Of a stretch of DNA of 64,000 bases, positions 9,332 to 54,444 are shown piece after piece; the stretch's first letter is position 1; every line of letters begins with the position of its first letter. Both the position numbers and the translations under genes were made by a program. The stretch is from Natronomonas halophila (GTDB taxonomy: Archaea; Halobacteriota; Halobacteria; Halobacteriales; Haloarculaceae): the NCBI RefSeq assembly GCF_013391085.1, contig NZ_CP058334.1, positions 1,922,001 through 1,986,000 on the forward strand, in the 5' to 3' direction. The notes below the pieces were generated by a model. That model searched no databases. It had not been told where the DNA came from and saw only the letters and a program-made list of their open reading frames with translations.

Positions 9332-9334
9332 CGC

Positions 9335-14353: not shown

Positions 14354-14366
14354 ATTCACATATCAA
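14354..14366 (-). promoter_or_regulatory. Copy 3 of the 13-bp motif, ligase side
   Basis: Plus-strand ATTCACATATCAA; differs from copy 1 at three of 13 positions and fits RTTNRMATATSAA. Confidence 0.4.
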
Positions 14367-14480
14367 CCCCGTCGTTACCGTAGAGGTACGCCATACCGCG
14401 TTTTAGGTGAACGTCGATTTCGGGGACAGGCGTTCAGTCCTCGGGTTCCGACGGTTTCGGCCCCGCCGACGCGGGCCGAC

Positions 14481-14493
14481 GTTAGAATATGAA
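14481..14493 (+). promoter_or_regulatory. Copy 4 of the 13-bp motif, SDR side
   Basis: Plus-strand GTTAGAATATGAA, 39 bp before the SDR start, nearly the same spacing as copy 1 has to livK. Confidence 0.4.
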
Positions 14494-14531
14494 CCTCGGT
14501 TTCCATATCGGTCGCTAGCCGATACTGTGGT

Positions 14532-15407
14532 ATGAGTTCGCAACCGGGCTCGGATAGCGACTCCCTGTCGCCGCCGCCCATCACGAAAGAGCGGGTTCTC
14601 ACGCTCGATGACCCGCGATTTTCGACGGAGAACGTCGCCGTCGTCACCGGCGCGGCCTCGGGTATCGGCCGGGCGACGGCCATCGCGCTGGCGGTCAATG
14701 GCCTGACCGTTGTCGGCCTCGATATCGACGAGAGCGGCCTCGACGAAACCATCGAGACGGTCGACTCGCTTGACGCCGAGGGCCGGCTGGTCGCCGCGCC
14801 CGCCGACCTGACCGACGACGAGGAAACCGAGGCGGCCATCGAGGCCGCTGCCGAGGAGGGGTCGATTCGATATCTCGCCAACATCGCCGGAATGCAGCAT
14901 ATCGCGTCCATCCCCGACTTCCCGATGGACACCTACGACCGGTTGACCGACGTGATGCTCCGGGCACCGTTCCTGCTGTCGAAACTCGTGATGCCGCATA
15001 TCCGGGCGACCGACGACGGCGTCGGCGCCATCGGCAACATGTCGTCGATTCACGGCCGCTATGCCACCCGCGACAAGGCGACCTACATCACCGCGAAACA
15101 CGGTCTCAACGGCCTGACGCGGTCGATTGCTGCCGAGGGCGAAGGCACGCTCCGCGGCTATTCGGTCAGCGTCGGCTACGTGTTGACGCCGTTGATGGCC
15201 AACCAGATCGAAGACACCACCGAGGAGCGGGGAATCAGCGAGGACGAAGTCATCGAGGACGTGATGCTCGGGCAGGCACGTACGAAGGAGTTGATGTTGC
15301 CGGTCGAGGTTGCGAACCTCTTCGTGCTCGGCTTCTCGTCGCACGCGAAACACCTCAACGGCGGCGACCTGCTGTTCGACGGCGGCTACACGCTCACCTA
15401 CGAGTGA
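14532..15407 (+). CDS. Short-chain dehydrogenase, 3-hydroxybutyrate dehydrogenase-like
   Basis: 291 residues. NAD(P)-dependent oxidoreductase with the cofactor loop TGAASGIGRA (about residues 40-49) and the catalytic YxxxK within YITAKHG (about 177-183), plus Ser in NMSSIHG. The C-terminal half (TPLMANQIEDTTEERGISEDEV) is characteristic of 3-hydroxybutyrate dehydrogenases, which interconvert acetoacetate and 3-hydroxybutyrate. A 30-residue polar N-terminal extension precedes the fold. It shares the intergenic motif with the divergent acyl-CoA ligase, suggesting a joint role in acyl or hydroxyacyl use. Confidence 0.85.
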   Translation: MSSQPGSDSDSLSPPPITKERVLTLDDPRFSTENVAVVTGAASGIGRATAIALAVNGLTVVGLDIDESGLDETIETVDSLDAEGRLVAAPADLTDDEETEAAIEAAAEEGSIRYLANIAGMQHIASIPDFPMDTYDRLTDVMLRAPFLLSKLVMPHIRATDDGVGAIGNMSSIHGRYATRDKATYITAKHGLNGLTRSIAAEGEGTLRGYSVSVGYVLTPLMANQIEDTTEERGISEDEVIEDVMLGQARTKELMLPVEVANLFVLGFSSHAKHLNGGDLLFDGGYTLTYE

Positions 15408-15438
15408 AACCTGTCGCCCGCTGAAAACGAGCCGGTGA

Positions 15439-15594
15439 CTACAACGACGTGCTGACGCCGACCACCGTCTCCTCGCTTTCGGTCCCGGGGACGCTCAGCC
15501 ACTCCTCGCCGTCGACGGCGCTGGCCTGCAGCGGCCCGAGCGTGTAGCGGCCGGTCGCCGCCTTCAGGACCGACCGGCGTGTCTCCGTCCGCGT
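15439..15594 (-). pseudogene. Remnant of a Tat-signal protein
   Basis: On the minus strand an open stretch reads TETRRSVLKAATGRYTLGP and ends at TAG 15439 after about 50 codons. RRSVLKAATG is a typical haloarchaeal twin-arginine signal start, and the C-terminal part is acidic and halophile-like. No ATG or GTG precedes it in frame and the hydrophobic part of the signal is missing, so an internally deleted, start-less remnant is the best reading. A chance open frame cannot be excluded. Confidence 0.3.
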
Positions 15595-15711
15595 GGTTCG
15601 TTCGTCTCTCTCCGTACCGGTATATAGCCCTCTGTGGCCATCACCCCGGTACGTTCAGGTGGGGACGCGGACGGAGGGATACAGCCGGCGACGTACCGTG
15701 TGATACCCCTA

Positions 15712-15718
15712 TTATAAA
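15712..15718 (+). promoter_or_regulatory. TATA element of the pst operon
   Basis: TTATAAA lies 34-40 bp before the pstS ATG, in a short A+T-rich patch within G+C-rich DNA. With the usual 25-27 bp to the transcription start, the mRNA would have a leader of about ten bases. Confidence 0.55.
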
Positions 15719-15751
15719 CCGGTTTAGTAACCCTCGGGGACCAATCAGGTG

Positions 15752-16816
15752 ATGACGCAGGAGAACTCGCGTCTCGACGGGGTATCGCGGCGACAGGTGA
15801 TTCTCGGTACCGGTGCGGTCGGGGCGGCCTCGATGGCCGGCTGTCTCGGCAACGTCACCGGGAGCAACGAGGGGGGTTCAGAGCCGCTTACCGCCGACGG
15901 CTCCTCGACGGTCTATCCCATCACGAGTCGAGCGGGCTCGCTGTGGAACGGTAACGCGCCCGCGGACGACAAGGAGTACTGGGGCCCCGGACAGTACGAT
16001 ATTGACACCGACAAGAACATGGCCGACTACTGGGCCGGCCTCTACGGCTTCGAACCCAGCGGCGAGGAGGGCACGCCGCCGTTCTTCGTCAGCGTCGGCC
16101 TCAACCACACCGGCGTCGGCCTCGAAAAACTCGAACGCGGACAGGTCGACATCGGCGACGCCAGCGCGCCGGTCAGCGCGGAGTTCCCCGACCGGCCGGC
16201 ATCCGAACTCGAACCCTTCACGGACCACGTCGTCGCCATCGACGCCCAGCCCATCATCGTCAGTTCCGAACTGTACGAAGCGGGGGTCACCGAACTGACC
16301 CTCGCGGACGTTCAGGACATCTATCGCGGCAACGTCGAAAACTGGTCGGAACTCGGCGGGCCGGACAAGGAGATTCAGGCCGTCGGCCGCGCGGTCGGCT
16401 CCGGGACCGACACCTCGTTCCGCGCGAACGTCCTCGGCGACCCCGACGCCGAGATGCCCGGCGTCGACACCCGGAAGGGCCAAAACCAGCAGGTCAAGAC
16501 GCTCGTCGACAACTCCGACAACGCTATCGCCTACATCGCCCTGGCGTTCGTCGACGACGCGACGCCCGCCATCGACCTCGAAATCGACGGCCAACTCTAC
16601 GAGTATCCCGACGACTTCGGGACGCTCGATTACCCGCTGTCGCGGGCGCTGCACTGCTATACGTGGGAAGGAACCTCCGACAAGGAGGCGGCCTTTATCC
16701 GGATGATTCTCAGCGACTACGGCCAGCAGATGTTCGTCGAAACCAACGACTACCTGCCGCTGAACGACGACCGCCGGCAGGAGGAAATCGACAAACTGCC
16801 CGAGCCGTCGAACTGA
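15752..16816 (+). CDS. pstS: Phosphate-binding lipoprotein PstS
   Basis: 354 residues from ATG 15752 (a GTG directly precedes it). Twin-arginine signal SRRQVILGTG and lipobox SMAGC; mature protein with the PstS phosphate-loop segments LTADGSSTVYPIT (about residue 46) and GRAVGSGTDTSFR (about 215). Binds phosphate outside the cell and delivers it to PstCA. First gene of a tight operon with its own TATA box; low-phosphate induction is expected from family knowledge. Confidence 0.95.
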   Translation: MTQENSRLDGVSRRQVILGTGAVGAASMAGCLGNVTGSNEGGSEPLTADGSSTVYPITSRAGSLWNGNAPADDKEYWGPGQYDIDTDKNMADYWAGLYGFEPSGEEGTPPFFVSVGLNHTGVGLEKLERGQVDIGDASAPVSAEFPDRPASELEPFTDHVVAIDAQPIIVSSELYEAGVTELTLADVQDIYRGNVENWSELGGPDKEIQAVGRAVGSGTDTSFRANVLGDPDAEMPGVDTRKGQNQQVKTLVDNSDNAIAYIALAFVDDATPAIDLEIDGQLYEYPDDFGTLDYPLSRALHCYTWEGTSDKEAAFIRMILSDYGQQMFVETNDYLPLNDDRRQEEIDKLPEPSN

Positions 16817-16851
16817 GCCGCTGACTGCGAATATTTTACGAGACTCACTCC

Positions 16852-17961
16852 ATGCTCGGCTCTTCATCCCTCGAAGCGATTCCGCGACTCGACCGTCGGA
16901 CCGACCTCTCCCGGGAGGCCGCGGCGATGCTCGCCGTGCTGTCGGTCAGTCTGCTCGGAACGTTCGTCCTGTTCCTGCTGAACGACCTGCTGGCCGTGGT
17001 GCCGCTCGTCGCGTTCCTCGCGGCGGTCGGCTACGGATGGGTCACCCAGCAGGACGTGACCGCCCGCGTGCTGTCGCTTATCGCCACCGCCTCGACGATA
17101 GCGATTCTCGGCCTCATCACGGTGTTCATCTTCTATCGGGCGGTGCCCGCCTTCCGGCTGATGGGCGCCCGCCTGTTCGGCTTCACCGACCCCGTGACGG
17201 TCTTGGGCGTCTCGCTGCCGGCCGTCGAGACGTTCTGGAGCACCGGGTCGAACACCTACTCGCTGGTGCCGATGATCTGGGGCACGCTCGTGACCACCGC
17301 CATCGCGATGGTCATCGCGGGGCCGCTCGGTATCGCGGGGGCGCTCTTTCTCGCTGAAATCGCGCCGCCGATGGTCCGGGAGGTGGTCAAGCCGGGCGTG
17401 GAGATTCTGGCCGGCATTCCCTCCATCGTCTACGGCTATCTCGGCTTCGTGACGCTGAACACCTTCCTCTTCGAGCACCTGCGGATGTCGAACCTCGGGA
17501 GCCTCTTTCTGGTCGGCCTGGTTATCGGGCTGATGGCGCTGCCGACGGTCGTTTCGGTCGCCGACGACGCGCTCACGAGCGTGCCGGCCAGCATGCGTGA
17601 CGGGTCGGCCGCGATGGGCGCAACCGAGTGGCAGACGACGAAGAGCATCACGCTCCCGGCGGCGCTGTCGGGCGTTTCCGCCGCCGTACTGCTCGGCATC
17701 GGCCGGGCCATCGGCGAGACGATGGCCGCGACGGTCATCATCGGCCACAGCCAGCAACTCCCGCAACCGCTGGCCGACGTCTTCGCGAGCACCGAGACGC
17801 TGACGAGCCTCATCGCCAGCCAGTACGGCAACGCCGACGGTGGCCACATGAGCGCGCTGTTCGCGGCCGGTGTCGTCCTCTTCGTCACCGTGCTGGTGTT
17901 GAGCATCGGCGCCCGACGCGTCGAACTTCGGATGGAGCGGAAACTCGGGGGTGAGCCATGA
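16852..17961 (+). CDS. pstC: Phosphate ABC permease PstC
   Basis: 369 residues, starting 35 bp after pstS. About eight hydrophobic segments; the permease domain has the ATPase-contact loop DGSAAMGATEWQTTKSITLP (about residues 248-267) and FLAEIAPPMVREVVKPGVE. The N-terminal 100 residues add two to three helices. The last four bases overlap pstA (ATGA). Confidence 0.93.
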   Translation: MLGSSSLEAIPRLDRRTDLSREAAAMLAVLSVSLLGTFVLFLLNDLLAVVPLVAFLAAVGYGWVTQQDVTARVLSLIATASTIAILGLITVFIFYRAVPAFRLMGARLFGFTDPVTVLGVSLPAVETFWSTGSNTYSLVPMIWGTLVTTAIAMVIAGPLGIAGALFLAEIAPPMVREVVKPGVEILAGIPSIVYGYLGFVTLNTFLFEHLRMSNLGSLFLVGLVIGLMALPTVVSVADDALTSVPASMRDGSAAMGATEWQTTKSITLPAALSGVSAAVLLGIGRAIGETMAATVIIGHSQQLPQPLADVFASTETLTSLIASQYGNADGGHMSALFAAGVVLFVTVLVLSIGARRVELRMERKLGGEP

Positions 17962-19511
17962 GCGGTGAGTACGCCTCGACGCTCGTCACCGACGAGGCGA
18001 CGCTCGGCGAGCGTGTCGCCTCGACGACGATTGGCCTCGGCCTCCTCGTGTTCGTGCTGTCGGTGCTGGCGGTCGCTCGCGTGGTGACCGAGGAGGCGTC
18101 GGTCCTCGGTATCGGCCTCTACGATTTCCTCGCTGGCGGCCTGCTGGCGATGGGTCTCGGCGTCGGCGTCGTCGGCGTCGGGTCGGCACTCGGGCGGGTC
18201 GCAACGACGCCCGACGAGACGCCGGGCACGGTCACCGCGGGCGCATTCGGCCTTATCGCGGCCGCCGTCGTCTGGCTGTCGACCGCCCAAATCGGCGCTT
18301 TCGGCCCCCTTGGAGGCGTCCCCGCTGGCCTCCTCGCGGGCGCCGTCACGTTCGTCGGCCTCGGGTTGCTGCCGGAGGATCTCGGGTCGACGCTGCCGAC
18401 GGTTGCGGTTGCGGTCGCGGTCTCTGGGGCCGTGCTGACGAACCTCCTCACGCCCGCGTGGCTGTGGGACCCCGAGTGGCTCTCGGCGGGCTTTTCGGGG
18501 TCGATGACGATTCCGGTGCTGCTTGCGGTCGCCGCGCTCCTGACGGCGTGGGCCGGCGCGAAAGCCTACGGCGGCTACGGCAGCGAGGGCCGACAGGCCG
18601 GCGCGTACCTGCTGGTCGCGCTGAACGCGCTCGGGATGTTGGCCGTGCTGTTGGCCATCATCCTCTTTATCGTCACGAAGGGCGTCGCCCCGGCCTTCGA
18701 GGGGTTCTCGCTGTCCCCCTTCGATTGGCCGTTCGTCCTGAACGGCTACTCGTTCCGGCCGGACGTGGTCAACGGGGTGTTCCCGGCCATCGTCGGCACG
18801 ATATACCTCGTGGTCGGGGCGACGCTAACGGGCGTCCCCGTCGCCGTCGCCGCCGCCGTGTTCCTCACCGAATACGCCGAACAGGGGCCGTTCGTCGGCG
18901 CCGTGGAAATCGCCACGAACGGCCTCTGGAGTACGCCCTCGGTAGTGTACGGCCTGTTCGGCTACGCCTTCCTCGTGCCGCGACTCGGCGGCACCACCTC
19001 GCTGCTGTCGGGGATGCTCGTTCTCGGGTTCATGCTGATGCCGCTGTGTCTCATCACCTCACGGGAGGCCATCAAGGCCGTTCCCGACGAATACCGCGAC
19101 GCCAGCGCCGCCCTCGGCGTCTCCCAGTGGGAGACCGTCAAAAGCGTCGTCGTCCCCGCGGCGATGCCCGGCATCGTCACGGGCGTTATTCTGGGCGTCG
19201 GCCGCATCGCCGGCGAGACGGCGCCCATCCTGCTGGTGATGTCCGGCGGCCTGCGCGACGACGCCCCGAACGTTCTCGGGTCCTTCGAGTTCACCTCGGC
19301 GCCGCCCTTCGTCGCCAACGACGCGCTGTTGCAGAGTTCACCGGCCCTCCCGTATCAACTGTACGCGACCATCACCTCGGGCGTCTCCGCGGAGAACGCC
19401 GTCGAGTACGGCTGGGGCACCGCCTTCGTGCTGCTGGTGGTCGTGCTGTCGTTCTACGCGGTCGGCATCGCCACGCGGATGTACTTCAGACGGAGACTCA
19501 ACTATGAGTAA
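17958..19511 (+). CDS. pstA: Phosphate ABC permease PstA with a long N-terminal membrane extension
   Basis: 517 residues, much longer than bacterial PstA (about 280-300). Residues 220-517 are the standard permease with the EAA-type loop [20 protein letters not shown]. Residues 20-215 add about five or six helices rich in Gly, Ala, Val and Leu. Similar elongation is seen in other haloarchaeal PstA as far as I recall. It overlaps pstC by four and pstB by eight bases. Confidence 0.93.
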
Positions 19512-20427
19512 CACCACACCATTGGAGACGGAACGGACCGATGGACGCGACGACCCCGACGCTGTGCGCGCAACGACGGTCGGCGAGTCCGAGGAAACGA
19601 TTCGGCCCGCCTGGCGCCAGTACGACTTCGAGGGCGACCCGAAGATGTCGGTTCGAAACCTCGACGTCCACTACGGCGACGACCACGCGCTGAAGGACAT
19701 CAGCATGGAGATTCCCGAGGAGAGCGTCACCGCGCTCATCGGGCCATCCGGCTGCGGGAAGTCGACGTTCCTCCGGTGTCTGAACCGGATGAACGACCGG
19801 ATTCGCGCCGCCGACGTCGACGGCGAGGTGACCTACGACGGCGAAGACATCTATCAGGGTGGCGTCAACCTCGTCGAACTCCGCAAGCGCGTCGGGATGG
19901 TGTTTCAGGCGCCGAACCCCTTCCCGAAGTCGATTCGGGAGAACGTCTCCTACGGGCCGCGCAAACACGGCGAGGTCCGGACCGGCTTCTTCGACCGCCT
20001 GACCGGCCGCGACGACCGCGAACAGCGGGACCGAATCGTCGAGGAGTCCCTCCGGAAGGCGGCGCTGTGGGACGAGGTCAACGACCGCCTCGACGAGAAC
20101 GCCCTCAGCCTCTCGGGCGGCCAACAACAGCGGCTCTGTATCGCCCGCTGTCTCGCGGTCGACCCCGAGGTCATCCTGATGGACGAACCGGCGTCGGCGC
20201 TGGACCCCATCGCGACTGCGAAAATCGAGGACCTCATCGAGGAGCTATCCGAGGAGTACACGGTCGTCGTCGTCACCCACAACATGCAGCAGGCCGCCCG
20301 CATCTCCGACCAGACGGCCGTCTTCCTCACCGGCGGCGAACTCGTCGAGTACGGCGACACCGACCGCATCTTCGAGAACCCGAACAGCGACCGCGTCGAG
20401 GATTACATCACCGGGAAGTTCGGCTAA
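19504..20427 (+). CDS. pstB: Phosphate ABC transporter ATPase PstB
   Basis: 307 residues. Walker [10 protein letters not shown] (about residues 80-88), signature LSGGQQQR, Walker [14 protein letters not shown], and a PstB-type N-terminal stretch [19 protein letters not shown] after a 50-residue polar extension. Powers PstCA. Confidence 0.95.
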
Positions 20428-22567: not shown

Positions 22568-24652
22568 TTAATCGTCATCCGCGATAGCGGATGAATCTGC
22601 TTCTGTACCAGTAGCGAGATCTGGTGGCGTTTCGTTTTCGATGACAGCCATCTCTCGGGGGAGTGCTCTGATTTTGATTCCACGCCATTCCCCGTCGACG
22701 CCGAGGAGTGCTTGCGAGTAGCCTTTCTCCTTGTCACCCGGAACCGCGTTCTGAACGAACCGCATTTGGGCGTGATTCAAATCGAAGATCTCCGCGATAT
22801 CCGGGTCCATCCCGTCGAGTTTGTGGAACTGCTTGATGGCACACTGGTCAAGGATGATTTTTGAGATATCGTGTGCGAGGAACTCATCGACAGTCTGTGT
22901 GACCAGTCGAATCGACAAGTCGTGGTGGCGATGGTGTCTGAAGATGGTCTCTAGATACTCCAGGGTCTCGGCGTCTTTCATGAGGTACCGCGCCTCGTCG
23001 ATAATAAACACGACCTCCTTTTCTGTCTCCTTGGCACGCTCATAGACCAGTGAAATGAGCAACTCCATCAACAGGCTCGTGTGTCCACCGATAGACCCAC
23101 CCTGCTGAGTCAGGTCCAGATACAACACCTTCTCGTCTCGGATGTCGAATTCGCTCTCTCGACCGAGGTTCTCGAACTGCCCGCCTTCAGCGAAGGGACG
23201 CAACTGATCGAGCAGCCAGACGGCATCCGATCGGATCTTCTCGCCTTCGGCCTCTACTCGCACGACATACTCATCGGGGTCTTCGCTCATTTCTTCGAGA
23301 ATATCCAGCATCTCCTGTACCGTCGGACTCTCGCGGCTGTGCGTCGAGACGTCTTCCGTGATTCCCTTCCGGTCGTAGGCTTCGTCGATGGCGAGTTCTA
23401 GCGTTGTGCGTCGATCGCCGAGGTCCACATCGCGGAGCGCGAAGTAGTTCGTGAAGAAACTCACCGCCCGGTTTCGCTTTTCTTTTAGAGGGCTCGCATC
23501 ATCGCCACGTTCGGCACGGCGGTGTTCCGGGGTCGGTTTGATTTCTAACGGGTTGAGACCCAGCGTTCCGCCGACGGTCAACTGTCGGCCGCCGAGCGCA
23601 TCGACGACCCCATTCCAGTTGTTGAGCGGCTCGAGAACGACCCCAATCCGATCCGGATCACGCTCTAGCGTACGGATGAAGTTCTGTTTCGAACCGAAGG
23701 ACTTCCCCGAACCAGGATCCCCAACCGTGAACATCGCATAGCCGTCCTCGCGCTCGAAGGGGTCGATAACGACGGGGCTTCGGGTGTCCTTGTGGATACC
23801 GAATTCGACGCCACCGTCCTCGAGAATCGTTGCGTTATGCGGTGACGCAAGCAACGCACCGACGGCGCCGCCGAGCGCAACGGCATCCCGTTCCAGCCCG
23901 CTCGGACCGACCGGAGCGGCCGACCGGAGCGCCTTGTCCTGCGTACAAATCGCCGTCTTCGGTTCCAGTCCAGCCGGTTGCTCACGGAGCGTCGCTCTGA
24001 CTTTCTTGACGGCCTGCTGGAGTTCGTCCCGTGTGTCCGCCCGCACCGTAATGACGAGTTCCTGGTCGAAGACCTGCTGGCCGTTCTCGACGGCCTTGTA
24101 GGTCGCGACGGCGTCGTTGGCTTTCTCCTGTAGATAGGCACCCCTGACCGATTTTTCGAGGTCGGCATCAGCCTGTAAGTCGTCGGCCACCCGTTGCAGT
24201 TCGTCGCGAGCACGGCCTTGGTTTTTTGGCACGATGCGAGACGTCACGTCGAACTCGATATCGGTCAACTCGAAGAGCTTGCTCAGATAGCCATCCTTCG
24301 GAGCGTCGGGATATTCTGCGACGTACAGAGTGGTCGTCCATTGTTCACCGACCTTCGCGGCTCTGGTATCCCACTGAACCGCCGCTGGTGCTACCGTATC
24401 CTGATGCTGTTCGGCGATCGAATCCAACAGATCACGTTCGATATCGGCCGCTTCCAACGTTTCCTCGTCGAGGTGGGAGGAGAGTGGTGTCTCTTCGCGA
24501 GTTCGCTCGCGCCACCACGAAACGAGATTCGCGATCACGATGAGTGCGAGCACGCTGCTGACACCGTATACCAGTATTCCCTCACTCGAAACGACAGGCG
24601 GTAGCGAATCGAGTCGACTGATCGCGTCTGTAATAACCTCGCTTGGTGTCAT
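22568..24652 (-). CDS. VirB4/TraC-like (HerA-FtsK superfamily) ATPase
   Basis: 694 residues. A hydrophobic helix near residues 27-46, a VirB4-like N-terminal half, then Walker A GDPGSGKS (311-318) and Walker B VVFIIDEARY (about 560). VirB4 proteins energise assembly and substrate transfer of type IV secretion systems; archaeal CedB-like DNA-import ATPases belong to the same superfamily. The start overlaps the upstream gene by four bases. Last gene of a minus-strand operon of membrane proteins. The family is firm; whether the substrate is DNA or protein is not shown. Confidence 0.85.
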   Translation of the reverse strand: MTPSEVITDAISRLDSLPPVVSSEGILVYGVSSVLALIVIANLVSWWRERTREETPLSSHLDEETLEAADIERDLLDSIAEQHQDTVAPAAVQWDTRAAKVGEQWTTTLYVAEYPDAPKDGYLSKLFELTDIEFDVTSRIVPKNQGRARDELQRVADDLQADADLEKSVRGAYLQEKANDAVATYKAVENGQQVFDQELVITVRADTRDELQQAVKKVRATLREQPAGLEPKTAICTQDKALRSAAPVGPSGLERDAVALGGAVGALLASPHNATILEDGGVEFGIHKDTRSPVVIDPFEREDGYAMFTVGDPGSGKSFGSKQNFIRTLERDPDRIGVVLEPLNNWNGVVDALGGRQLTVGGTLGLNPLEIKPTPEHRRAERGDDASPLKEKRNRAVSFFTNYFALRDVDLGDRRTTLELAIDEAYDRKGITEDVSTHSRESPTVQEMLDILEEMSEDPDEYVVRVEAEGEKIRSDAVWLLDQLRPFAEGGQFENLGRESEFDIRDEKVLYLDLTQQGGSIGGHTSLLMELLISLVYERAKETEKEVVFIIDEARYLMKDAETLEYLETIFRHHRHHDLSIRLVTQTVDEFLAHDISKIILDQCAIKQFHKLDGMDPDIAEIFDLNHAQMRFVQNAVPGDKEKGYSQALLGVDGEWRGIKIRALPREMAVIENETPPDLATGTEADSSAIADDD

Positions 24653-25743
24653 CGGTCGTCCTCCCGCGGACTCCGACTCACAGCCGGTTCGGTACGGATG
24701 AGCTGCTCGGCGTGGTCTTCGCTGAGTTCCTCACCGTTCCAGAATTCGGTCAGTAGAAGGAATATCTCGACTGTCGTGAGGCGTCGGTCGGTCCACCCGG
24801 AGACGTTGTCGATGAACTCCGAGCGGACCGTCTCGATTCGATCATCGAGCTTTTCGAACATTGCAGCCCGCAACTCGGATTCTTCGAGTTGCTCTCGCCG
24901 GGTGACGAACGGGTTGAACAGAAAACCGATAATCGGGAACTTCGTGAGTTTCTCGCCCGGCGTTTGCTCGGCTCCGTATCGCTTGTAGACCTCAATGCGA
25001 TCGACCTCGACGCCGAGATAGTAGTGCAACTCTTGAGCGTCTGCGAGGTCGTCGGGCCGTTTGTCTTGGTATTCCTCGATCAACTCGCCGAAGACCGGAT
25101 TGGCTTGGACGTCCTCGTCTTCAAGTCGATCATCGAGTTGTTTGACGAGCCGTTCGACCGGAAACGAGCGGGTCGTCGCATACATCGTCAGTGGGAAGCC
25201 CAACTCGTTGTTCGCGAACTCCTCGCCCGCTCGCTGGACGGCGGCCCAGTCATCTGACATGGCGAAATCCATGTTCGCCGGTTCGAGTTCGATGAACGCC
25301 TCCATCGTCCCATCCGTCCGCTCGATGGCGTTCGCACCCGGCCATGCCCGCCTGACGTTCGTCAGGTCCTGTGTGGATTCATCGACGCTGAACGGCGTGT
25401 ACTGAACCAGACCGCCCTCGGTGGTCGGGTTGGTATCCGCCGTGCGATAGCTGTGGGTCACCCGTGGACGCTTTGTGACATAGCGTAGAACGTCGGTCAA
25501 CCAGTCCCACGCGGTGAGTTGCGGTGGTGCTGCATAGACCAGTGCCGTACCGATGGTCAGCCCTGTGAAGAGGAGACCGATGGTAACGATACCGATGTTC
25601 AGCAAACTGCCGATGAGTAGGCCAGCTAACGGAAATCCAAGCAAGACGCCGACATCTCCTTCCCGAATGTTGATGACCGGGATGCGATTGTCTTCACCGA
25701 GACGGTTCATGATGCGCCGTTGTGCTCTGTCGTAGTCAGTCAT
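24649..25743 (-). CDS. Membrane partner of the VirB4-like ATPase (PrgI/VirB3-type plus VirB4 N-terminal-like)
   Basis: 364 residues. Two adjacent hydrophobic segments at about residues 30-70 (VGVLLGFPLAGLLIGSLLNI and a second) resemble the PrgI/VirB3 two-helix hairpin. The rest is a soluble domain with a parallel to VirB4 N-terminal domains (AFIELEPANMDFAMSDDW, YLGVEVDRIEVYKRYG). No nucleotide-binding motif. Coupled by ATGA overlap to the ATPase, so the two probably form one complex. The specific family call is moderate. Confidence 0.6.
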   Translation of the reverse strand: MTDYDRAQRRIMNRLGEDNRIPVINIREGDVGVLLGFPLAGLLIGSLLNIGIVTIGLLFTGLTIGTALVYAAPPQLTAWDWLTDVLRYVTKRPRVTHSYRTADTNPTTEGGLVQYTPFSVDESTQDLTNVRRAWPGANAIERTDGTMEAFIELEPANMDFAMSDDWAAVQRAGEEFANNELGFPLTMYATTRSFPVERLVKQLDDRLEDEDVQANPVFGELIEEYQDKRPDDLADAQELHYYLGVEVDRIEVYKRYGAEQTPGEKLTKFPIIGFLFNPFVTRREQLEESELRAAMFEKLDDRIETVRSEFIDNVSGWTDRRLTTVEIFLLLTEFWNGEELSEDHAEQLIRTEPAVSRSPREDDR

Positions 25744-25746
25744 TGA

Positions 25747-26862
25747 TCAGTAGTAGGCCGGATCGTTTTCTTTTCGCCGATACTCCGAACGACCTCCAGA
25801 GTCCGCCTCGTCGGATGAATCCGAGGCAGGTTGATCTCCCGTTCGTCGGGCGACTCTGTATCGGTTCGATACCGCCACGCTTGCGCCGGCTGTTGGTCCC
25901 CAACGGCCGGCAGCAGCAGCGGCTCTCGGACCACCGATCGCAGCCGCTCCAGCGACGGTTCCCAACAGCACTGTTCCTCGACTCGCTGTTCCCAGCACTC
26001 GGGCTGCCAGCGGGCTCGCATATTGGAACGTCTTCCAGGTGACGAATAACGCGATAATCGGTAGCGAGATTACGACGAGATACTCGAAGAACGACCCTGA
26101 AACGGCCAGTTTTGACTCGCCAGTAAACAGGAACGCATAGCCGCGGAACAGAAGCGCAGCCGGCAATGGGAGAATCGCGAGCGGGATAAACTGGGCACAG
26201 ATTCGTCGGGCGATTCCCGAAAGGACAGGAACGTTTCCGTAGGAAATCGCAAGCCCAACTGGCATCCCGTAGAGGTACACGTACAGTAGGACGTCTCGAA
26301 TGAAAAACAGCGCCTGTACAGCGAGCATCGAGAGGCCGCCAACCATCGCCATGAGAAGCGTGACTACGGGTGTATCAACCGCGTGTGGAAGCATCGCGAT
26401 GAGTGCCTCCGCTACCTGCGTGATATTCGGGAGCAACCCGATTGTAAGCCCGTGAACGAAGTACAACGTCATCACCGCGAGCCAATACCAGGTGACAATG
26501 AGGAATGCACCTGTCCACGACGACCGCCGAGCCTTTCGCTGTTCGTAGGCGCTTCCCATGTTGAATATCCGGATAAAATGCCGTCCTTGGACACAGAGAA
26601 AGAGAATAACGAGTCCGAAAATCATCATCTCTCCCGCCACGGTTGCCTCATAGATGCCGTGCCAGAGACCGTCTGATTTTGGGGGCTTGCTGAAGACTTT
26701 AGCAGTGCCATCACCCTCCGGGAGAGGTGTGGCGAAGAGCGAGGCACCCAGATCGCGAAGTCCCCCCACTAATTCCTCTGAAAACCATTCTGTGACTCTT
26801 TTGACGATGTCCTCGAACCATTTCAGACCAAAATCTGAGAACGGTGTTTCGGCCATTTTCAT
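25747..26862 (-). CDS. Polytopic membrane channel-like protein (VirB6/TrbL/CedA type)
   Basis: 371 residues with about seven hydrophobic segments between residues 70 and 320 and an amphipathic N-terminus. The layout matches inner-membrane channel components of type IV secretion systems (VirB6, TrbL) and the archaeal DNA importer CedA; no sequence motif decides between them. The C-terminal 50 residues are polar and disordered-looking. Three bases separate its stop from the next start; its own start overlaps the lipoprotein stop by four bases. Confidence 0.55.
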   Translation of the reverse strand: MKMAETPFSDFGLKWFEDIVKRVTEWFSEELVGGLRDLGASLFATPLPEGDGTAKVFSKPPKSDGLWHGIYEATVAGEMMIFGLVILFLCVQGRHFIRIFNMGSAYEQRKARRSSWTGAFLIVTWYWLAVMTLYFVHGLTIGLLPNITQVAEALIAMLPHAVDTPVVTLLMAMVGGLSMLAVQALFFIRDVLLYVYLYGMPVGLAISYGNVPVLSGIARRICAQFIPLAILPLPAALLFRGYAFLFTGESKLAVSGSFFEYLVVISLPIIALFVTWKTFQYASPLAARVLGTASRGTVLLGTVAGAAAIGGPRAAAAAGRWGPTAGASVAVSNRYRVARRTGDQPASDSSDEADSGGRSEYRRKENDPAYY

Positions 26863-42338: not shown

Positions 42339-42800
42339 AATGCGGTATACTTGATCCACGGAGAATTACTGACTATCTGATTTCTCCCACTTTCGATGAT
42401 GTCGAATCTCCACGTAGTATCTCTGGTTCCACCCTTGGATAGGGGGAATGATTGCTCTTCTGAGCTGCGTCTACTAAAATAACAGAGTTAATGATGTTAT
42501 TCATGTCGTTTTACTCGGGAACGAGATTATGGTCTGCCAAATCTCGGTACTATGTCAATACAATATATCTGGAATTTCAAGGGGCTGTTAACATGACGTA
42601 CGTAACCTCAAACGCTTATATATGCAAGCGGTAAACATTATACTGGAGCGTTCTAGGGCCTGTCCTCCCGGATATAGGTCGTGGCTGCGCGCGCAGCGAA
42701 CGGAGTGATCGAGCACGGAGCGGAGGGTGGGGCGGTGGCTGGCGGGTGGTGGCCGAATACAACAAAAAACCGTCAAGAGATTACCGTACTCTGGGCCGGT
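42339..42800. other. Non-coding stretch at the left side of the second mobile region
   Basis: 460 bp with no supportable gene. The left part is A+T-rich like the catabolic island; G+C rises abruptly at about 42.68 kb where the direct repeat begins. Confidence 0.5.
42676..42749. repeat. Left copy of a G+C-rich direct repeat
   Basis: 74 bp starting AGGTCGTGGCTGCGCGC and ending TGGCGGGTGG. It matches 54379-54444 over its whole length except for an 8-base deletion in the other copy and four transitions. It contains the palindrome CTGCGCGCGCAG. Both copies lie just past the stop of a minus-strand gene. Confidence 0.6.
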
Positions 42801-43487: not shown

Positions 43488-44414
43488 TTATCGCCGCGCG
43501 CCCTCGAGATCCCGATAGCGCTCCCGAACGGTCACTGCTGAGACGTCGGCAGCATCCGCGAGTGCGTTCTGTTTCAGATACTCGCCGGTCTCCTGTCCGG
43601 CGAGATACAGCGCTCCAGCAGCCGAACCGAGTGGATTCCGACCGTTCGCGATCTGGTCGTTGTCCGCGGTATCGAGAAGTGTCTGCGCTCGCCGCCGAGT
43701 TTCCTGTGAAGCGTCGACCGCCGACGCTACCTGTGGGACGTACTGCGACGGATCTGCTGGCGGCACGGGCAGATCGAGTTCCCGATTCAACGCGGTGTAT
43801 CCGGTGCGAATGCGCTCTTCGTCGATCTTCGAGACCCGTGCAATCGCCTCGAACGACCGAGGATGTTCGTTGAGACGGCAGACCGCGTAGAGACACCCTG
43901 ATGCGATTGCCTCGATGGATCGGCCTCGCAGGAGATCCGAATCTTGGGCCGTTCGGAAGAGTTGACACGCCTGATCACGAACGCTCGTCGGTAAGCCGAG
44001 CGCGGCCGTCATCCGCCGAATCTCGGTGAACCCAGTGATGCGGTTTCGGTCGGCCTTCGAGCTGACCTTCGCTCGGGTGTGCTCGCGACGCAGCCGATGC
44101 AGTTGGCGTCGTTTTCGCCCCTTGAGTTCCCGTCCACTGGAGTCCTGCTTCCGGCCGATGTCCGTCCCGATACCGCGGTCGTGTCGGGCGACGGTGTTCG
44201 GCGCACCGACGCGCCGGCCGCCTTCGTCGTTGTGGAACTCCCGCCACTCCGGGCCACGATCCATCTCCTGGTCCTCGACGACAAGTCCGCAGTCGTCACA
44301 GACCGTCTCGTGGGTATTCGATGTTACTCGGCTACTGCACTCCGGGCAGGTGTTGTGTTCGTTTTGCTGTACGTCCTCGTCGAACGTCTGCTCGTAGATG
44401 TTTCTCGAAGCCAT
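43488..44414 (-). CDS. tfb: Transcription initiation factor B (TFB) paralogue
   Basis: 308 residues. Zinc ribbon with Cys23, Cys26, Cys39, Cys42 (CPEC and CDDC), a B-finger/linker region, then two cyclin-like repeats (about residues 110-205 and 210-308; SIEAIASGCLYAVCR and NPLGSAAGALYLAGQ). TFB recruits RNA polymerase to TBP-bound promoters; haloarchaea carry several paralogues that give promoter choice. The C-terminal repeat ends early (REERYRDLE-like ending), slightly short for a TFB. Accessory-region copy, 27 nt after hairpin leader R2. Confidence 0.9.
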   Translation of the reverse strand: MASRNIYEQTFDEDVQQNEHNTCPECSSRVTSNTHETVCDDCGLVVEDQEMDRGPEWREFHNDEGGRRVGAPNTVARHDRGIGTDIGRKQDSSGRELKGRKRRQLHRLRREHTRAKVSSKADRNRITGFTEIRRMTAALGLPTSVRDQACQLFRTAQDSDLLRGRSIEAIASGCLYAVCRLNEHPRSFEAIARVSKIDEERIRTGYTALNRELDLPVPPADPSQYVPQVASAVDASQETRRRAQTLLDTADNDQIANGRNPLGSAAGALYLAGQETGEYLKQNALADAADVSAVTVRERYRDLEGARR

Positions 44415-44441
44415 GTCACGTCACGAGGCACGCTACTGTGC

Positions 44442-44470
44442 GCCCCTCGCCCGTTCCGGGGCACAAAAAC
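44442..44470 (-). repeat. Hairpin leader R2, upstream of the TFB gene
   Basis: Plus strand: arm GCCCC, loop TCGCCCGTTCC, arm GGGGC, then ACAAAAAC. Ends 27 nt before the TFB ATG. The 98 bp 44375-44472, including the first 13 TFB codons, recur at 45454-45551. Confidence 0.6.
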
Positions 44471-44646
44471 GGACCCATCGAGACGAGTACCTGACATCGT
44501 TCACTCCCGGGAGGGATCCCAGCGAATTTGCTGAGAAACCAGTCTTCAGCAACTACTCTCTGAAAACCGTGTAGCCATATCGAAGAACTGAGCGCAGTAC
44601 AAGGTAATCCTCCGCTACACCGGGACTACTTGACTAGGGCACGCGG

Positions 44647-45368: not shown

Positions 45369-45453
45369 CGTTGGATGGAGATATGTACTCTATCGTAAAG
45401 AGCGTTAGGAGTGAAAGCTCTGAAAATATCAAAAGATACTATTTTCTGTACAG

Positions 45454-45551
45454 CCTCGTCGAACGTCTGCTCGTAGATGTTTCTCGAAGCCACCTCACGT
45501 CACGAGGCACGCTATTGTGCTCCCCTCGCCCGTTCAGGGGCCAAAAAACGG
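45454..45551 (-). pseudogene. Truncated duplicate of the TFB 5' end with its leader
   Basis: 98 bp almost identical to 44375-44472: hairpin leader plus the codons ASRNIYEQTFDE. The start codon is GTG instead of ATG, and similarity stops after about 13 codons; the frame then runs into unrelated A+T-rich DNA that overlaps the winged-helix gene. Probably the scar of a duplication or recombination. Confidence 0.7.
45521..45549 (-). repeat. Hairpin leader R3, in the duplicated TFB 5' end
   Basis: Plus strand: arm CCCCT, loop CGCCCGTTC, arm AGGGG, then CCAAAAAAC. 28 nt before the degenerate GTG start. Its arms differ from R2 although the flanks are duplicated, so stem bases changed while complementarity held. 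Confidence 0.55.
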
Positions 45552-46722: not shown

Positions 46723-47026
46723 CGGTTCTCACGAGAGACGACTTCGAGCGTCCCTCGCCCGTTCAGGGGCAGAAAAACTGTACTCTCTACACCGGTATCA
46801 CGAAATCCCGAAACCCCTGCAATGGCAAGCAAGAACAGTCGCTCCATTCTGTAGTGGAATAGGACTTGGCCTTAGCGTCCAATAGCGATGATTCGAGACG
46901 AGTCGGAACGTCTGGCACCACGGCGGCCGGGGCTACGTCGCGTCAGGGCTCTTGGTATAGAGCCAACCACGACGTTTTGAGAGGGTTGTCATAATCCTTT
47001 TAGAACGAGCGTTCGGTTAGATTCGC
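46723..47026. other. Intergenic region with hairpin leader R4 and the lipoprotein promoter
   Basis: 304 bp, no gene. The first 55 bp hold R4 for the DUF932-like gene; the rest drives the plus-strand metzincin-like gene, with an A+T-rich patch (CATAATCCTTTTAG) about 30 bp before its ATG. Confidence 0.45.
46751..46777 (-). repeat. Hairpin leader R4, upstream of the DUF932-like gene
   Basis: Plus strand: arm CCCT, loop CGCCCGTTC, arm AGGG, then GCAGAAAAAC. 29 nt before the ATG at 46722. No flanking similarity to R2/R3 beyond the element. Confidence 0.55.
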
Positions 47027-49770: not shown

Positions 49771-49833
49771 CTACACGTCATCGACGTCTTCATCGGTGGT
49801 GGCCGTAGCGTCCTCTACCGATTGTTGTGGCAT
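49771..49833 (-). other. 20-codon open frame starting MPQQS (copy 1)
   Basis: ATG 49833 to TAG 49771, encoding MPQQSVEDATATTDEDVDDV. The 20 bases around the start (ACATGCCACAACAATCG core) recur at 51480. Probably the surviving 5' tip of a lost gene; a microprotein is possible. Confidence 0.25.
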
Positions 49834-49910
49834 GTCTGCATTGTCTTGTAGTCCGGTACTCCGCCCAGAAAGATCGCCCAAGTAGATACTTGTAGACGAC
49901 CGGATAGGAT

Positions 49911-50378
49911 ATGGATATGTTCGGTATTTCGGAGCCAAATATCCTCGAGCAGGGAGAGGCTGGAGACCAATTCATCAATGAAGATCAACCACAGGTCAGA
50001 ATCACTCGAAATCAGACCGATCCGAATTGGATTGTAGATGGGGTCGACAGTATAGAAATCTCCTATGAATCTAACGACCGATTCCGGGTTGAGTATTGGG
50101 GATATATGACCGGGAGACTGTGGATCACCCATGATGGCGTTAACGAACTGAAACAGACCTTCCTTGACGATCGAGATGAGATTCCTGGCTGGACGCTCTC
50201 GACCGAACTCACGGAGCTCCCGGACTGGTTTCCTGTGCCTGACGACATCCCTTCTCCTGTTACGTGTAGTGAATGCGGGTCAGAAGTCTCGGTAACTGAG
50301 GTCACAGCCCCGTTGTCAGGGGGGTTACAAGACCGCTACTGTCCAGATTGCTGGTCCTCTGTTCGAGATGGAACGTAA
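49911..50378 (+). CDS. Zinc-ribbon protein of unknown function
   Basis: 155 residues. The N-terminal 100 residues are beta-rich and acidic without a recognised fold (SNDRFRVEYWGYMTGRLWIT). The C-terminal 40 residues form a zinc ribbon with CSEC and CPDC pairs. A second ATG two codons later is equally possible. Stand-alone gene among defence/mobile-type neighbours. Confidence 0.55.
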   Translation: MDMFGISEPNILEQGEAGDQFINEDQPQVRITRNQTDPNWIVDGVDSIEISYESNDRFRVEYWGYMTGRLWITHDGVNELKQTFLDDRDEIPGWTLSTELTELPDWFPVPDDIPSPVTCSECGSEVSVTEVTAPLSGGLQDRYCPDCWSSVRDGT

Positions 50379-50595
50379 CCATCGCGACCTTCTTGAGTCG
50401 CCTTACCGCTGCATCACACTTCCGTTGATATGACCTCCTACTGACAACCTGGCTCACAGATAGACTTATCTGACGCAGCTGTGTCTGTATCAAATACCGA
50501 ATAGGCCGTACCCATCCCGGGTCGCGTTGAACGTGACCTGCGAACACCGGATGGGAGTTCAAGCATAGTCGGGAGTCCGGCTATGCGTGACAACT

Positions 50596-50862
50596 ATGGC
50601 CTACGAAATTTCCTTCCGGCGTGGACTCGAAGCGGCTTTTGAAACCCTCGACAGCGAGGCTGCAGCCCAGATTCAGAAGAAGCTTGAGCGTGTCGCGACT
50701 GACGAGTGGCGGTCGCCTGCAGACTGGAGCTACAAATCGTGGGGCGGCCAGTCGACCGGGAAGTTCAACTGGGGGTCTCACCGTGTTTTCGCGGATATCG
50801 ATGAATCAGCAGGCAAAATTATCGTTGATGAGTCTCTCCATCGGGAGAACCTCTATAGGTAG
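50596..50862 (+). CDS. RelE/ParE-like toxin candidate
   Basis: 88 residues from ATG 50596. The C-terminal half (HRVFADIDESAGKIIVDESLHRENLYR) is the RelE-family ending, with conserved basic residues and Tyr, and the N-terminal helix pair (AFETLDSEAAAQIQKKLERV) fits the fold. RelE toxins cleave mRNA on the ribosome. No antitoxin of the usual RelB or AbrB type is visible immediately upstream, so it is either an orphan or paired with an unrecognised partner. Confidence 0.65.
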   Translation: MAYEISFRRGLEAAFETLDSEAAAQIQKKLERVATDEWRSPADWSYKSWGGQSTGKFNWGSHRVFADIDESAGKIIVDESLHRENLYR

Positions 50863-51434: not shown

Positions 51435-51482
51435 CTACGGACTGGATATGCCGTTAGACGTTGCTAACGATTGTTGTGGCAT
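51435..51482 (-). other. 15-codon open frame starting MPQQS (copy 2)
   Basis: ATG 51482 to TAG 51435, encoding MPQQSLATSNGISSP. It follows the metallophosphoesterase stop by 14 bases on the same strand and shares its start-region sequence with copy 1 at 49833. Confidence 0.25.
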
Positions 51483-51496
51483 GTCCGTATCTGGAA

Positions 51497-52558
51497 TCAT
51501 AATGGCTGGCGGCTAATCTCCGGTGAGTCCCCTGTAACTGTTAGTAGCCAAGTCGAGGGGTCGTTGTCCTCTGTCGAATCACTAATCGGTGCTGTTGGGC
51601 CCGTAGTCAGGACGGGTACATCGTGGTCACGAACCGTCCCTTCGCTCCCTACGTGCAGGTGGCCCGCGATGATGAGGTCCGGTGTGACTGTCGATTCTGT
51701 GAGGAAATCCCGAAGGTCGAGTTGCTCGGGTGAGTAGATATTCACGTTCTGTTCGTCTACGACGGGGAACGGTGTATCGTGGATAACCAGTACCTCTGGA
51801 ACTCCGAGAGTGTGGAACCGATGGTCGGGAGATAATGATGGGAGCTCTGCTCCTGAGTGGTCATAACCATACGCATTCAGAGATTCACCCTTCCCCGAGA
51901 TGGACGTCTCCTCGGTCGTGAGCCGGATGCACTCCGATTGTTCCGCCGTTAGCCGTTTCAGGAGTCGCCGACCAGCTTCCTTGTCGTGGTTTCCTTGGAC
52001 AAAATAGAAGGCGATTCCCTGCTCGCATGTGCGCGTCACTTCCTCATGAACCGTGTCTAAATCGGACTGTGTTGTCTCGTGATCGAAGATATCGCCAGCG
52101 TGGATTACCGCATCGACATTCTGGTTTCGGGCTCGGCGGAGTACTTTCGTGAAGGTCTCGCGGTTATCGACATCGTAACTCCAGGACGCCTTATTGCTCC
52201 GTGGACGGTGTCGGTATCCAACGTGGGTATCGCCGACGACGCAGATTCGAGTAGCCGCTGTCTGGCTAACTTCCCGGGCTTGGAACGCCGTAGTGCTATG
52301 TATCTCGACTCGGTCCCCTGATTGGGTGGAGTACCGTTTCCCACGTGCGCCTTCGAGCTCGTACTCTCGTCCTTCTACCCACTGCTGGCTGACATTGTGT
52401 GTCTTCCAAGTGATGACGTGGAGTTGGTCCCCATCCTCATCGATTGCTTTCAATTCGGTACTGCGAGGGTGGTTGGGCTGTGTGTTTACAGCGGTAACGG
52501 TGAGGCGTATTGAGTCAGTAAGACGTCTATCGTGCTGCACACCTTCACGAGTAATCAC
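51497..52558 (-). CDS. OB-fold plus calcineurin-like metallophosphoesterase (SbcD/Mre11-like)
   Basis: About 353 residues from GTG 52558; the frame is open to a TTG at 52654 and the start is uncertain. Residues 10-100 look like an OB-fold nucleic-acid-binding domain (SIRLTVTAVNTQP, VITWKTHNVSQQWVEGREYEL). From about residue 103 the phosphoesterase motifs appear in order: VGDTHVGYR, HAGDIFDH, VQGNHDKE, IIAGHLHVG. This is the Mre11/SbcD-type nuclease core without its Rad50-binding tail. Nuclease activity on DNA ends is likely. It lies directly downstream of, and possibly overlapping, the HNH gene. Confidence 0.75.
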   Translation of the reverse strand: MITREGVQHDRRLTDSIRLTVTAVNTQPNHPRSTELKAIDEDGDQLHVITWKTHNVSQQWVEGREYELEGARGKRYSTQSGDRVEIHSTTAFQAREVSQTAATRICVVGDTHVGYRHRPRSNKASWSYDVDNRETFTKVLRRARNQNVDAVIHAGDIFDHETTQSDLDTVHEEVTRTCEQGIAFYFVQGNHDKEAGRRLLKRLTAEQSECIRLTTEETSISGKGESLNAYGYDHSGAELPSLSPDHRFHTLGVPEVLVIHDTPFPVVDEQNVNIYSPEQLDLRDFLTESTVTPDLIIAGHLHVGSEGTVRDHDVPVLTTGPTAPISDSTEDNDPSTWLLTVTGDSPEISRQPL

Positions 52559-52643
52559 TATGCAGAGTATCCCCCGAGGCGCTATAGATAAGTTCGGGTT
52601 GCCGCACGAGTCGGAGACTGATCTGAGTGGCGAGCGTTCTCTG

Positions 52644-53921
52644 TTACATAACAAATTTATTTATATATTCGATCACGCTAACTAACTCCTCTCTCTTGTC
52701 ATAATCGTAGTATTTCTGGAACTCGTTCTTGTTATGTAGCTCTTTACCTCGCTTACTCCACTCCTTTTTACTCATCTTTGTATGATTCTCTTCATATGGG
52801 CTCCGTATCTTCCACTTCTTCCAAATCAATCCGGCTTTCTCCCAGGTACAGTCACATAGTATACAACGGGGCGGGCTATCCTCGTCAAGATATTTCTCCC
52901 AAACAGTATACTCGCCACCGCAATGTGGACAGAATTGCCAGCCGAACAGATTCATCTCTGATCGTGCTTTTTGAATGACTCTGCTAATCGATAGAAGGAG
53001 GTCATCAAGCTGGTCCGTAATCTGGTCTAATGCTTCCCTCATCTGTTGGTCGGCATAGTCGGTCCTCGCTGTGGTTGCTTGTTCGTCAACATCCTTGACG
53101 TCCGGTAGCTCTGCTTCACAAGAGGGACAAAAGTCATACTGTGGCTGTATCTCGATGCCACATTCATCGCAGATGAGGCCATCTGATGACCCGTATTGTT
53201 CTCCACAGTTGGTACACTTATTCGAAGGTGGAATATTCAACGAGCACTCAGGACAGATGCCAGCATAAATACTGGCTCCTTTTATGAAAGAGGTGAATGA
53301 ATTGAAAAAGTTAGCTAACTGTTCATCCAGTTTAGCATAGATTTTTAGCCGTCCATCTATCGAAGCTGCGAGGCCAGCATTAGATTTGCATGCCGCAAAC
53401 ATTTTGCGGCTATCCATGAAATCTCCTTTTAATTCCATAGACTCCTCAAAAATATCTATATATTCGCTTATCCCCCTATCTTTGTCGACGACCGAACTGT
53501 CTCCTTCATCCCTGTTCACTAATAATAAATTATCTAATGCTTTTACGCTCCCTATAGCGATAGAGATTAACACCTCTTGGTAATCCTGAATACTCGGTGT
53601 TGTATTCCCGGAAATAGAATTAGACATTATTTCGGGGACGTTACCCCTTTTCTCCGTCGGATATGTTTGAAGTGAACCGAGCGGACGTCCATGTACTAAA
53701 CTGTGGCATTCATCACATAGGGTGACTAAATTGTCTATTCCGTGGGTGCCGCCACGATCGACTGGGACAATATGGTGGGCGTGTAGCTCCGTATCTCCGT
53801 TAGGGCCGCCTCCAGCCTGACAATTTTGACATCTGTAGTTATCACGTTTATAAACCCGTTTCCGACGGGTATCCCAGTCATCTGGGTAATCGTCTCTACT
53901 TGTTATAGGGGAATTCGACAC
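52644..53921 (-). CDS. HNH endonuclease with multiple zinc ribbons
   Basis: 425 residues from GTG 53921. An N-terminal HNH nuclease (residues 28-78) has CQNCQ, HAHHIVPVDRGG, DNLVTLCDECH. The middle is A+T-rich and helical, and the C-terminal half has paired zinc ribbons (CPEC...CTNC, CDEC...CPSC, CPHC...CILC). Basic-residue content and base composition differ from the core, which indicates transfer. It could be a homing-type or defence nuclease; its neighbour is another predicted nuclease. Confidence 0.75.
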   Translation of the reverse strand: MSNSPITSRDDYPDDWDTRRKRVYKRDNYRCQNCQAGGGPNGDTELHAHHIVPVDRGGTHGIDNLVTLCDECHSLVHGRPLGSLQTYPTEKRGNVPEIMSNSISGNTTPSIQDYQEVLISIAIGSVKALDNLLLVNRDEGDSSVVDKDRGISEYIDIFEESMELKGDFMDSRKMFAACKSNAGLAASIDGRLKIYAKLDEQLANFFNSFTSFIKGASIYAGICPECSLNIPPSNKCTNCGEQYGSSDGLICDECGIEIQPQYDFCPSCEAELPDVKDVDEQATTARTDYADQQMREALDQITDQLDDLLLSISRVIQKARSEMNLFGWQFCPHCGGEYTVWEKYLDEDSPPRCILCDCTWEKAGLIWKKWKIRSPYEENHTKMSKKEWSKRGKELHNKNEFQKYYDYDKREELVSVIEYINKFVM

Positions 53922-54320
53922 GTAGAATGAAATGCTTAGTATAGGTATTTAAATTCGGTGCCAGGTGTGGAGAGAAACTCTGGTTTATCTTTATTAGATT
54001 TCAGATCCGGTCGCTAAAAGAAAGCGATCCAAACTCACCCATATTTAGTATGCTACTCTTCGGCACGGTCTAAATCTTCCTGCTATCGAACCACCGTTCT
54101 ACTCTGACTATCTGCTTGCCATCACCGGCGGGGAGGTTGTCCAGCGGATTGGGCTGGTTGGTCACCCGTGGGCACCTCTATTCATTATAGTATCATGACA
54201 TTTTCTCGAATCGCAAGACTGCGCGGGTATCGGGTTGTAGCGTTTTCGAACGTTATTGGATGACATTGGCCTTTCCTGAGAAGGCCGAAAATATCTGATA
54301 GAAGCCGTCTAACGCCAGAA

Positions 54321-54366
54321 TACTAGAACAGGATTTGAACCCGGGCTCTCGTCCTTACCAATGACG
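54321..54366 (-). tRNA. Partial tRNA-Thr(GGT)-like 3' half
   Basis: Read on the minus strand: anticodon stem CGTCA, loop TTGGTAA (anticodon GGT), GGACG, variable AGAGC, T arm CCGGG-TTCAAAT-CCTGT, then a seven-base acceptor-like TCTAGTA. Four of five anticodon-stem pairs and four of five T-stem pairs form. The D arm and 5' acceptor are missing upstream. This is what is left when an element inserts in a tRNA gene, so it may be an attachment-site remnant. Not a functional tRNA. Confidence 0.45.
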
Positions 54367-54378
54367 TCTTCGAGTCTT

Positions 54379-54444
54379 AGGTTGTGGCTGCGCGCGCAGC
54401 GAAGCGAGCACGGAGCGGAGGGCGGGGCGGCGGTTGGCGGGTGG
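54379..54444. repeat. Right copy of the G+C-rich direct repeat
   Basis: 66 bp, same orientation as 42676-42749, 11.7 kb away. It sits between the tRNA-like fragment and the stop of the OB-fold gene. Confidence 0.6.

Follow-up and report, generated by a model that had tools for sequence, protein, structure and literature searches.

We identified, in the haloarchaeon Natronomonas halophila, a gene (B) whose product carries an OB fold in front of a Mre11-type phosphoesterase with an intact active site. Its relatives have a patchy, mobile distribution and occur close to GmrSD and other defense genes. The family is a variant of the Mre11-type nucleases, which are usually thought of together with Rad50; its members have an SSB/RPA-like OB fold at the N terminus in place of the C-terminal parts for capping and Rad50 binding. 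The reading that we favor, with a probability of about 55%, is that B is a solo nuclease of mobile and defense islands that would degrade DNA with single-stranded ends independently of Rad50, and that the adjoining nuclease gene (A) is independent of it.

The two genes are consecutive on the minus strand in a low-GC stretch of the chromosome (Table 1). They lie within the 64,000 nucleotides that we analyzed (contig NZ_CP058334.1, positions 1,922,001 to 1,986,000), hereafter called the window. A first-pass annotation of this DNA had described them as adjacent predicted nucleases of foreign composition, and both points held. The GC content is 44.1% in A, the lowest among the genes measured, and 55.1% in B, versus 66.7% for positions 1 to 20000 of the window. 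The listed open reading frame (ORF) of B, 385 aa long, starts too early. Because relatives begin at the residue matching GTG 52558, we moved the start there, giving a protein of 353 aa and a gap of 85 bp from the stop of A. Were the longest possible ORF taken instead, the two genes would share 11 bp, and the annotation was thus right to place the second start within about 90 bp of the first stop or overlapping it. Each gene has a candidate leaderless promoter. That of A carries 8/8 consensus bases, a score equaled at 0.065% of random positions; that of B is weaker, with 6/8 consensus bases, and 2.6% of random positions do equally well.

Table 1. Features of the A-B region (positions are those of the window)
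Feature	Position	Strand	Basis or remark
155-aa protein with Cys pairs	49911..50378	plus	no Pfam family
Gene B, OB fold plus Mre11-type phosphoesterase, 353 aa	51497..52558	minus	start moved from TTG 52654
B residues 99-353, Mre11 nuclease domain	51500..52264	minus	structure alignment, conserved ligands
B residues 1-97, OB-fold domain of SSB/RPA type	52268..52558	minus	model, Foldseek, weak Teb1 profile
Candidate leaderless promoter of B, TTATCTATA	52583..52591	minus	~29 bp before GTG 52558
Gene A, HNH endonuclease with zinc ribbons, 425 aa	52644..53921	minus	Pfam/NCBIfam profiles, full-length relatives
Candidate leaderless promoter of A, TTTAAATA	53946..53953	minus	28 bp before GTG 53921
Single-OB RPA/SSB-like protein (PRK07217-like), 301 aa	54483..55388	minus	upstream of A

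The phosphoesterase of B was recognized by Pfam (Metallophos, E = 6.2e-16), and the OB fold proposed in front of it was borne out by structural modeling. An AlphaFold model built with 16 sequences (pLDDT 88, pTM 0.74) placed strands at residues 17 to 87, followed by the phosphoesterase domain. When this model was searched with Foldseek, the top matches were Mre11 proteins, and the N terminus matched the SSB protein SsoSSB (1o7i_B; E = 1.3e-4 over 104 columns). The Teb1 OB profile gave a weak match to the same part (E = 0.028). With VIA-align, the phosphoesterase superposed on Mre11 nuclease domains at Z scores of about 20 to 24 (for MjMre11, Z = 24.0, rmsd 2.7, 226 residues). The alignment stops at residue 244 of MjMre11 and 268 of PfMre11, and both Mre11 chains run on; the stop at MjMre11 residue 244 indicates that B lacks the parts for capping and Rad50 binding. 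All seven predicted metal ligands are present (D110, H112, D156, N190, H260, H300, and H302), the catalytic histidine H191 is in place, and these residues are invariant or almost so across the family (alignments of 24 and 16 rows). The ligand roles are assigned by analogy with Mre11 and DP1.

B therefore resembles Mre11/SbcD in its fold (Z of about 24), metal ligands, and catalytic histidine, but differs in lacking the capping and Rad50-binding parts and an adjoining Rad50 gene, and in possessing the additional N-terminal OB fold. Against the NCBIfam model Mre11_Halo (NF041030) it scored 56.5 bits, far under the cut-off of 550, versus 396.9 bits for a 217-aa piece of the host's own Mre11. The absence of a Rad50 partner, also claimed earlier, was confirmed among the scanned window genes adjoining B, none of which was Rad50-like. 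The host's Mre11 is encoded elsewhere, by a 464-aa ORF at about 2.48 Mb, some 0.5 Mb from the window; it overlaps an 887-aa ORF that is presumably Rad50. For comparison, the mre11-rad50 genes of H. volcanii form an operon without further genes (PMC2700283).

Other known proteins combine or associate similar parts. The small subunit of PolD, DP1, holds an OB fold and an active Mre11-like phosphodiesterase (PDE) in a single chain (PMC4996933), as do eukaryotic polymerase B subunits, and we considered B as DP1-like for that reason. We rejected this identity since the layout differs: the OB fold of DP1 (249-338) is inserted in the PDE (152-248 and 339-619), whereas that of B precedes a complete PDE. 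No DP1 model was among the NCBIfam matches of B at E ≤ 1, nor was DP1 among the fold-search matches (at most 50) listed for the B model. Haloarchaeal YhcR/HVO_1336 is a phosphoesterase of 247 to 260 aa encoded in an RPA operon (PMC5924565). Like B, it ties a phosphoesterase to OB-fold single-stranded DNA biology in haloarchaea; unlike operon-encoded YhcR, B is a fusion and island borne. The PADLOC candidate PDC-S10 matched only the phosphoesterase part of B (residues 144 to 309), with E = 1.1e-7 and a low score of 29 bits; the profile matched 3/5 B-family proteins tested and, weakly, 2/3 Mre11 fragments. A term search of the main text of a 2026 survey of archaeal immunity (PMC12988326) found neither PDC-S10 nor phosphoesterases. 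Among the papers listed by our literature searches, which covered few subscription journals, none named this OB-Mre11 family.

We characterized the distribution of the family by searching 391 genomes of the class, in which almost all matches to B were Mre11-level and covered the catalytic domain only. Together with two family-wide searches, of 170 and 146 genomes, this one supplied the full-length relatives. A B-profile scan of 52 loci, the window included, found a near-complete member or a large part in 50; the tree of the family holds 50 near-complete members and leaves aside the fragments L083 and L094. A pattern-based scan of genome contigs confirmed 349 loci; within the top 80 of these, every full-length match was haloarchaeal. 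Ten plasmid records matched B, seven of them over most of the protein. A viral origin was considered and rejected: phage records gave no match, and viral contigs gave no confirmed match in a search sensitive to close relatives only. Separate housekeeping contexts for the two genes, the alternative to a module in the first-pass annotation, were not what we found. Plasmids and islands harbor the relatives of B, along with genes for GmrSD, Mrr, PD-(D/E)XK, and integrase. In two genomes (G304 and G178), a separate Mre11-Rad50-type pair is also found at the B locus, and the role of B there may therefore be repair.

To describe the neighborhood of B, we took a census of the closest genes encoding 130 aa or more, two on either side, at 30 of the 41 mapped stretches (the window, near-copies, fragments, L076, and loci with A only were omitted) and classified the resulting 118 proteins with Pfam. 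GmrSD and phage integrase were each found six times, ADP-ribosylglycohydrolase four times, PD-(D/E)XK and DUF4268 three times each, and Mrr_cat twice. The control census covered 88 proteins around 22 housekeeping Mre11 genes (of 25 chosen loci, three were without an ORF at the spot) and gave Rad50-type AAA in 19 and AAA+ in 13; among the 25 of 60 families listed for it, the B-side neighbor families were absent. B has further nuclease-like neighbors in particular lineages. In G220 the neighbor is a NucS_C protein; Halapricum has PD-(D/E)XK plus UvrD, and the plasmid group has restriction endonucleases of Mrr or other type. At two loci (L092 and L093), an ADP-ribosylglycohydrolase gene adjoins B at 39 bp on the opposite strand; that of L092 matched PF03747 with E = 1.3e-74.

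We then located GmrSD in whole genomes through its C-terminal domain (GmrSD_C) alone. Among 29 copies in the first 35 B genomes, seven lay no more than 1.8 kb from B (G329, G175, G252, G153, G227, G169, and G094). Twelve additional B genomes held eight copies and yielded only one such case, within 0.7 kb of B (G414). Of the 47 B genomes, 8 thus have GmrSD this close to B, which favors a link to defense. The other 39 do not, and this, with the single case among the additional 12, counts against the reading that we favor. The eight cases require at least five label changes on the B tree. A rough calculation (37 copies × ~6 kb / ~3.5 Mb) gives about 0.06 expected cases versus the eight seen, an estimate that does not extend to specificity over other defense-island genes. 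Orientation was evenly mixed, with four cases on the same strand and four convergent, which makes the association one of proximity and not of a single operon. Since gene order varies as well, it may be mere co-location in islands.

Under the reading that we favor, the OB fold of B would hold on to DNA that is frayed or single stranded, which the two-metal site, likely with Mn2+, would trim or cut without a Rad50 ATPase. It could thereby degrade DNA termini left by restriction nucleases, or the single strands of elements entering the cell. On plasmids, intermediates of transfer or replication may be processed by B as well. The data fit both restriction clean-up and plasmid processing by B and do not separate them. 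An archaeal Mre11-type nuclease that has a single-stranded-DNA-binding fold swapped for its capping and Rad50-binding half, is mobile, and recurs beside modification-dependent restriction enzymes would be an easily tested candidate for a missing step of archaeal immunity, the destruction of DNA after the first cut.

Near-identical B genes are carried by MPF_T-typed plasmids of Haloprofundus, Halorussus, and Halobacterium sp. DL1 in a common gene order with orc1/cdc6, ArdC-like, and TFB genes, and this plasmid-backbone setting fits plasmid maintenance as well as defense. B could accordingly be a maintenance or transfer nuclease of conjugative-type plasmids that acts on single-stranded DNA or replication intermediates, its restriction neighbors being incidental. 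The window, too, holds similar TFB and (by eye) VirB4/HerA-like genes, and the single-OB RPA-like gene upstream of A is common to the plasmid loci L069 and L075. We nevertheless consider this somewhat unlikely: many B genes lie outside this plasmid backbone, in varied orders, near GmrSD, PD-(D/E)XK-UvrD, SNF2, or Mrr genes.

Gene A is intact and is best read from its sequence as a predicted HNH-zinc-ribbon nuclease that shares an island with B and is probably independent of it. The Pfam HNH model matched residues 31 to 77 (E = 1.1e-11) with 45.1 bits, above the cut-off of 21.4, which identifies A as an HNH endonuclease. The domain spans approximately residues 10 to 95 and contains the motifs CQNC, HAHH, CDEC, and HSLVH (zinc-binding Cys pairs plus catalytic His). 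The translation has eight CxxC pairs, at residues 31, 69, 223, 236, 251, 265, 331, and 353; the pairs at 223/236, 251/265, and 331/353 are compatible with zinc ribbons, and double zinc-ribbon models at residues 223 to 272 scored under the Pfam cut-off. A single-sequence fold model of A (pLDDT 42.6) was too low in confidence for use. We rejected A as an IscB (RuvC plus HNH), for which the match of 51.9 bits covered the HNH only (NCBIfam cut-off, 175), and as ZorE, whose profile match was confined to the HNH and weak or under the cut-off. In GmrSD, a ParB-like domain is accompanied by an HNH domain (PMC5512222 and PMC12839542). GmrSD shares an HNH-type nuclease domain with A and is a recurrent genomic neighbor of the B family, but neither A nor B matches GmrSD_N (DUF262) or GmrSD_C (DUF1524); A as a GmrSD was rejected because neither was among its Pfam matches at E ≤ 1.

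Matches to A occurred in 270 of the 391 genomes, mostly through the HNH alone, and only three relatives cover most of the protein: those of G312 (L188), G255 (L187), and a Halosegnis marinus plasmid (L105). In G312, an Mrr endonuclease and a SNF2/ResIII helicase lie in the same stretch; the plasmid relative adjoins DUF1156 genes. With two of its three relatives in such surroundings, A does not have a housekeeping context either. A might instead be an HNH gene of selfish or homing type, or what remains of one, that landed next to B. Its HNH module recurs at 50 to 65% identity in unrelated haloarchaeal proteins of 128 to 463 aa, its GC content is the lowest among the genes measured, and a G255 relative adjoins an ORF that looks serine recombinase-like from its sequence. 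Yet the full-length relatives retain both the HNH and the ribbons at 27 to 30% identity, and this, together with the restriction or defense-like neighbors of two of them, makes such an origin not very likely.

The first-pass annotation had further proposed that A and B form a two-gene module and suggested looking for their co-occurrence in other archaea. The genes proved not to be neighbors in other genomes. With A as the tblastn query (E ≤ 1e-3), we examined 948,612 bases in 51 B loci of genomes other than the host's (the fragments L083 and L094 included, the G048 fragment locus L100 excluded). No full relative of A was found in these fetched stretches, and the HNH part was present in two, at 4.6 kb (L094) and 2.9 kb (L080). 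Conversely, B was found with none of the three full-length relatives of A: G312 and G255 had no B match above the Mre11 level, the H. marinus plasmid was not among the 10 plasmid records matching B, and all three relatives have other neighbors. We therefore rejected a conserved module on the basis of the neighborhoods (0/51 and 0/3); that A has its own candidate promoter also speaks against one. Judged from these comparisons, the best explanation is that A probably came to lie beside B through co-location in an island, with no fixed partnership. Because the two genes occur separately in defense or island contexts, the suggested function in defense or element maintenance is plausible for each gene but not for the pair.

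A broader proposal is that OB-Mre11 proteins serve as autonomous clean-up or effector nucleases of archaeal type IV restriction, with swappable cutters, of which A would be the one in this lineage. The OB fold would load onto ends or gaps left by GmrSD, Mrr, NucS-like, or HNH nucleases, and the invader would be degraded without Rad50, different cutters being interchangeable beside B. We regard this as unlikely. That A and B are a true, recent two-gene unit of this lineage, in which B degrades DNA cut or nicked by A, is highly improbable; the shared strand, the short gap, and the similar upstream, same-strand position of the HNH-type GmrSD in G329 and G175 agree with it, but the neighborhoods elsewhere, the separate candidate promoters (a weaker one for B), and the unlike GC contents all argue against it.

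The surroundings of the two genes hold several other features. Downstream of B, 27-nt direct repeats (49815-49841 and 51464-51490, 89% identical) enclose the 155-aa gene, a 91-aa ORF (50587-50862), and, closest to B, a 127-aa ORF. A relative of the 155-aa protein follows B in G220, a genome of the same genus, in convergent orientation 19 bp away. Profile searches of the 91-aa ORF with Pfam, NCBIfam, and PADLOC gave nothing at E ≤ 1; by eye it resembles RelE/ParE, and it is without an obvious antitoxin partner. Positions 54323 to 54366, some 400 bp upstream of A, repeat 44 bp from the 3' end of tRNA-Thr(GGT); identity to the intact gene (G000:C1:2568303-2568346) is 91%, and the copy is likely an integration scar. 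An element built around a CCCCTCGCCCGTTC..GGGGC core recurs at 44363-44472, 45442-45551, and 46729-46778, at or just upstream of minus-strand starts (TFB at 44414 and a 386-aa gene at 46722), and is a possible shared regulatory element. Farther away, 22568-26862 contains a VirB4/HerA-like ATPase and membrane genes, and 31 to 42 kb of the window is a metabolic island with a TRAP transporter and genes of acyl-CoA-ligase type (all labels by eye). Together, the VirB4/HerA-like genes and the metabolic island suggest a large integrated element of conjugative type. Imperfect direct repeats with a GCTGCGCGCGCAGC palindrome (42675-42749 and 54378-54444, 90 to 93% identical) flank 11.7 kb carrying the TFB, toxin candidate, B, and A genes, and a related piece is also present at about 2.90 Mb.
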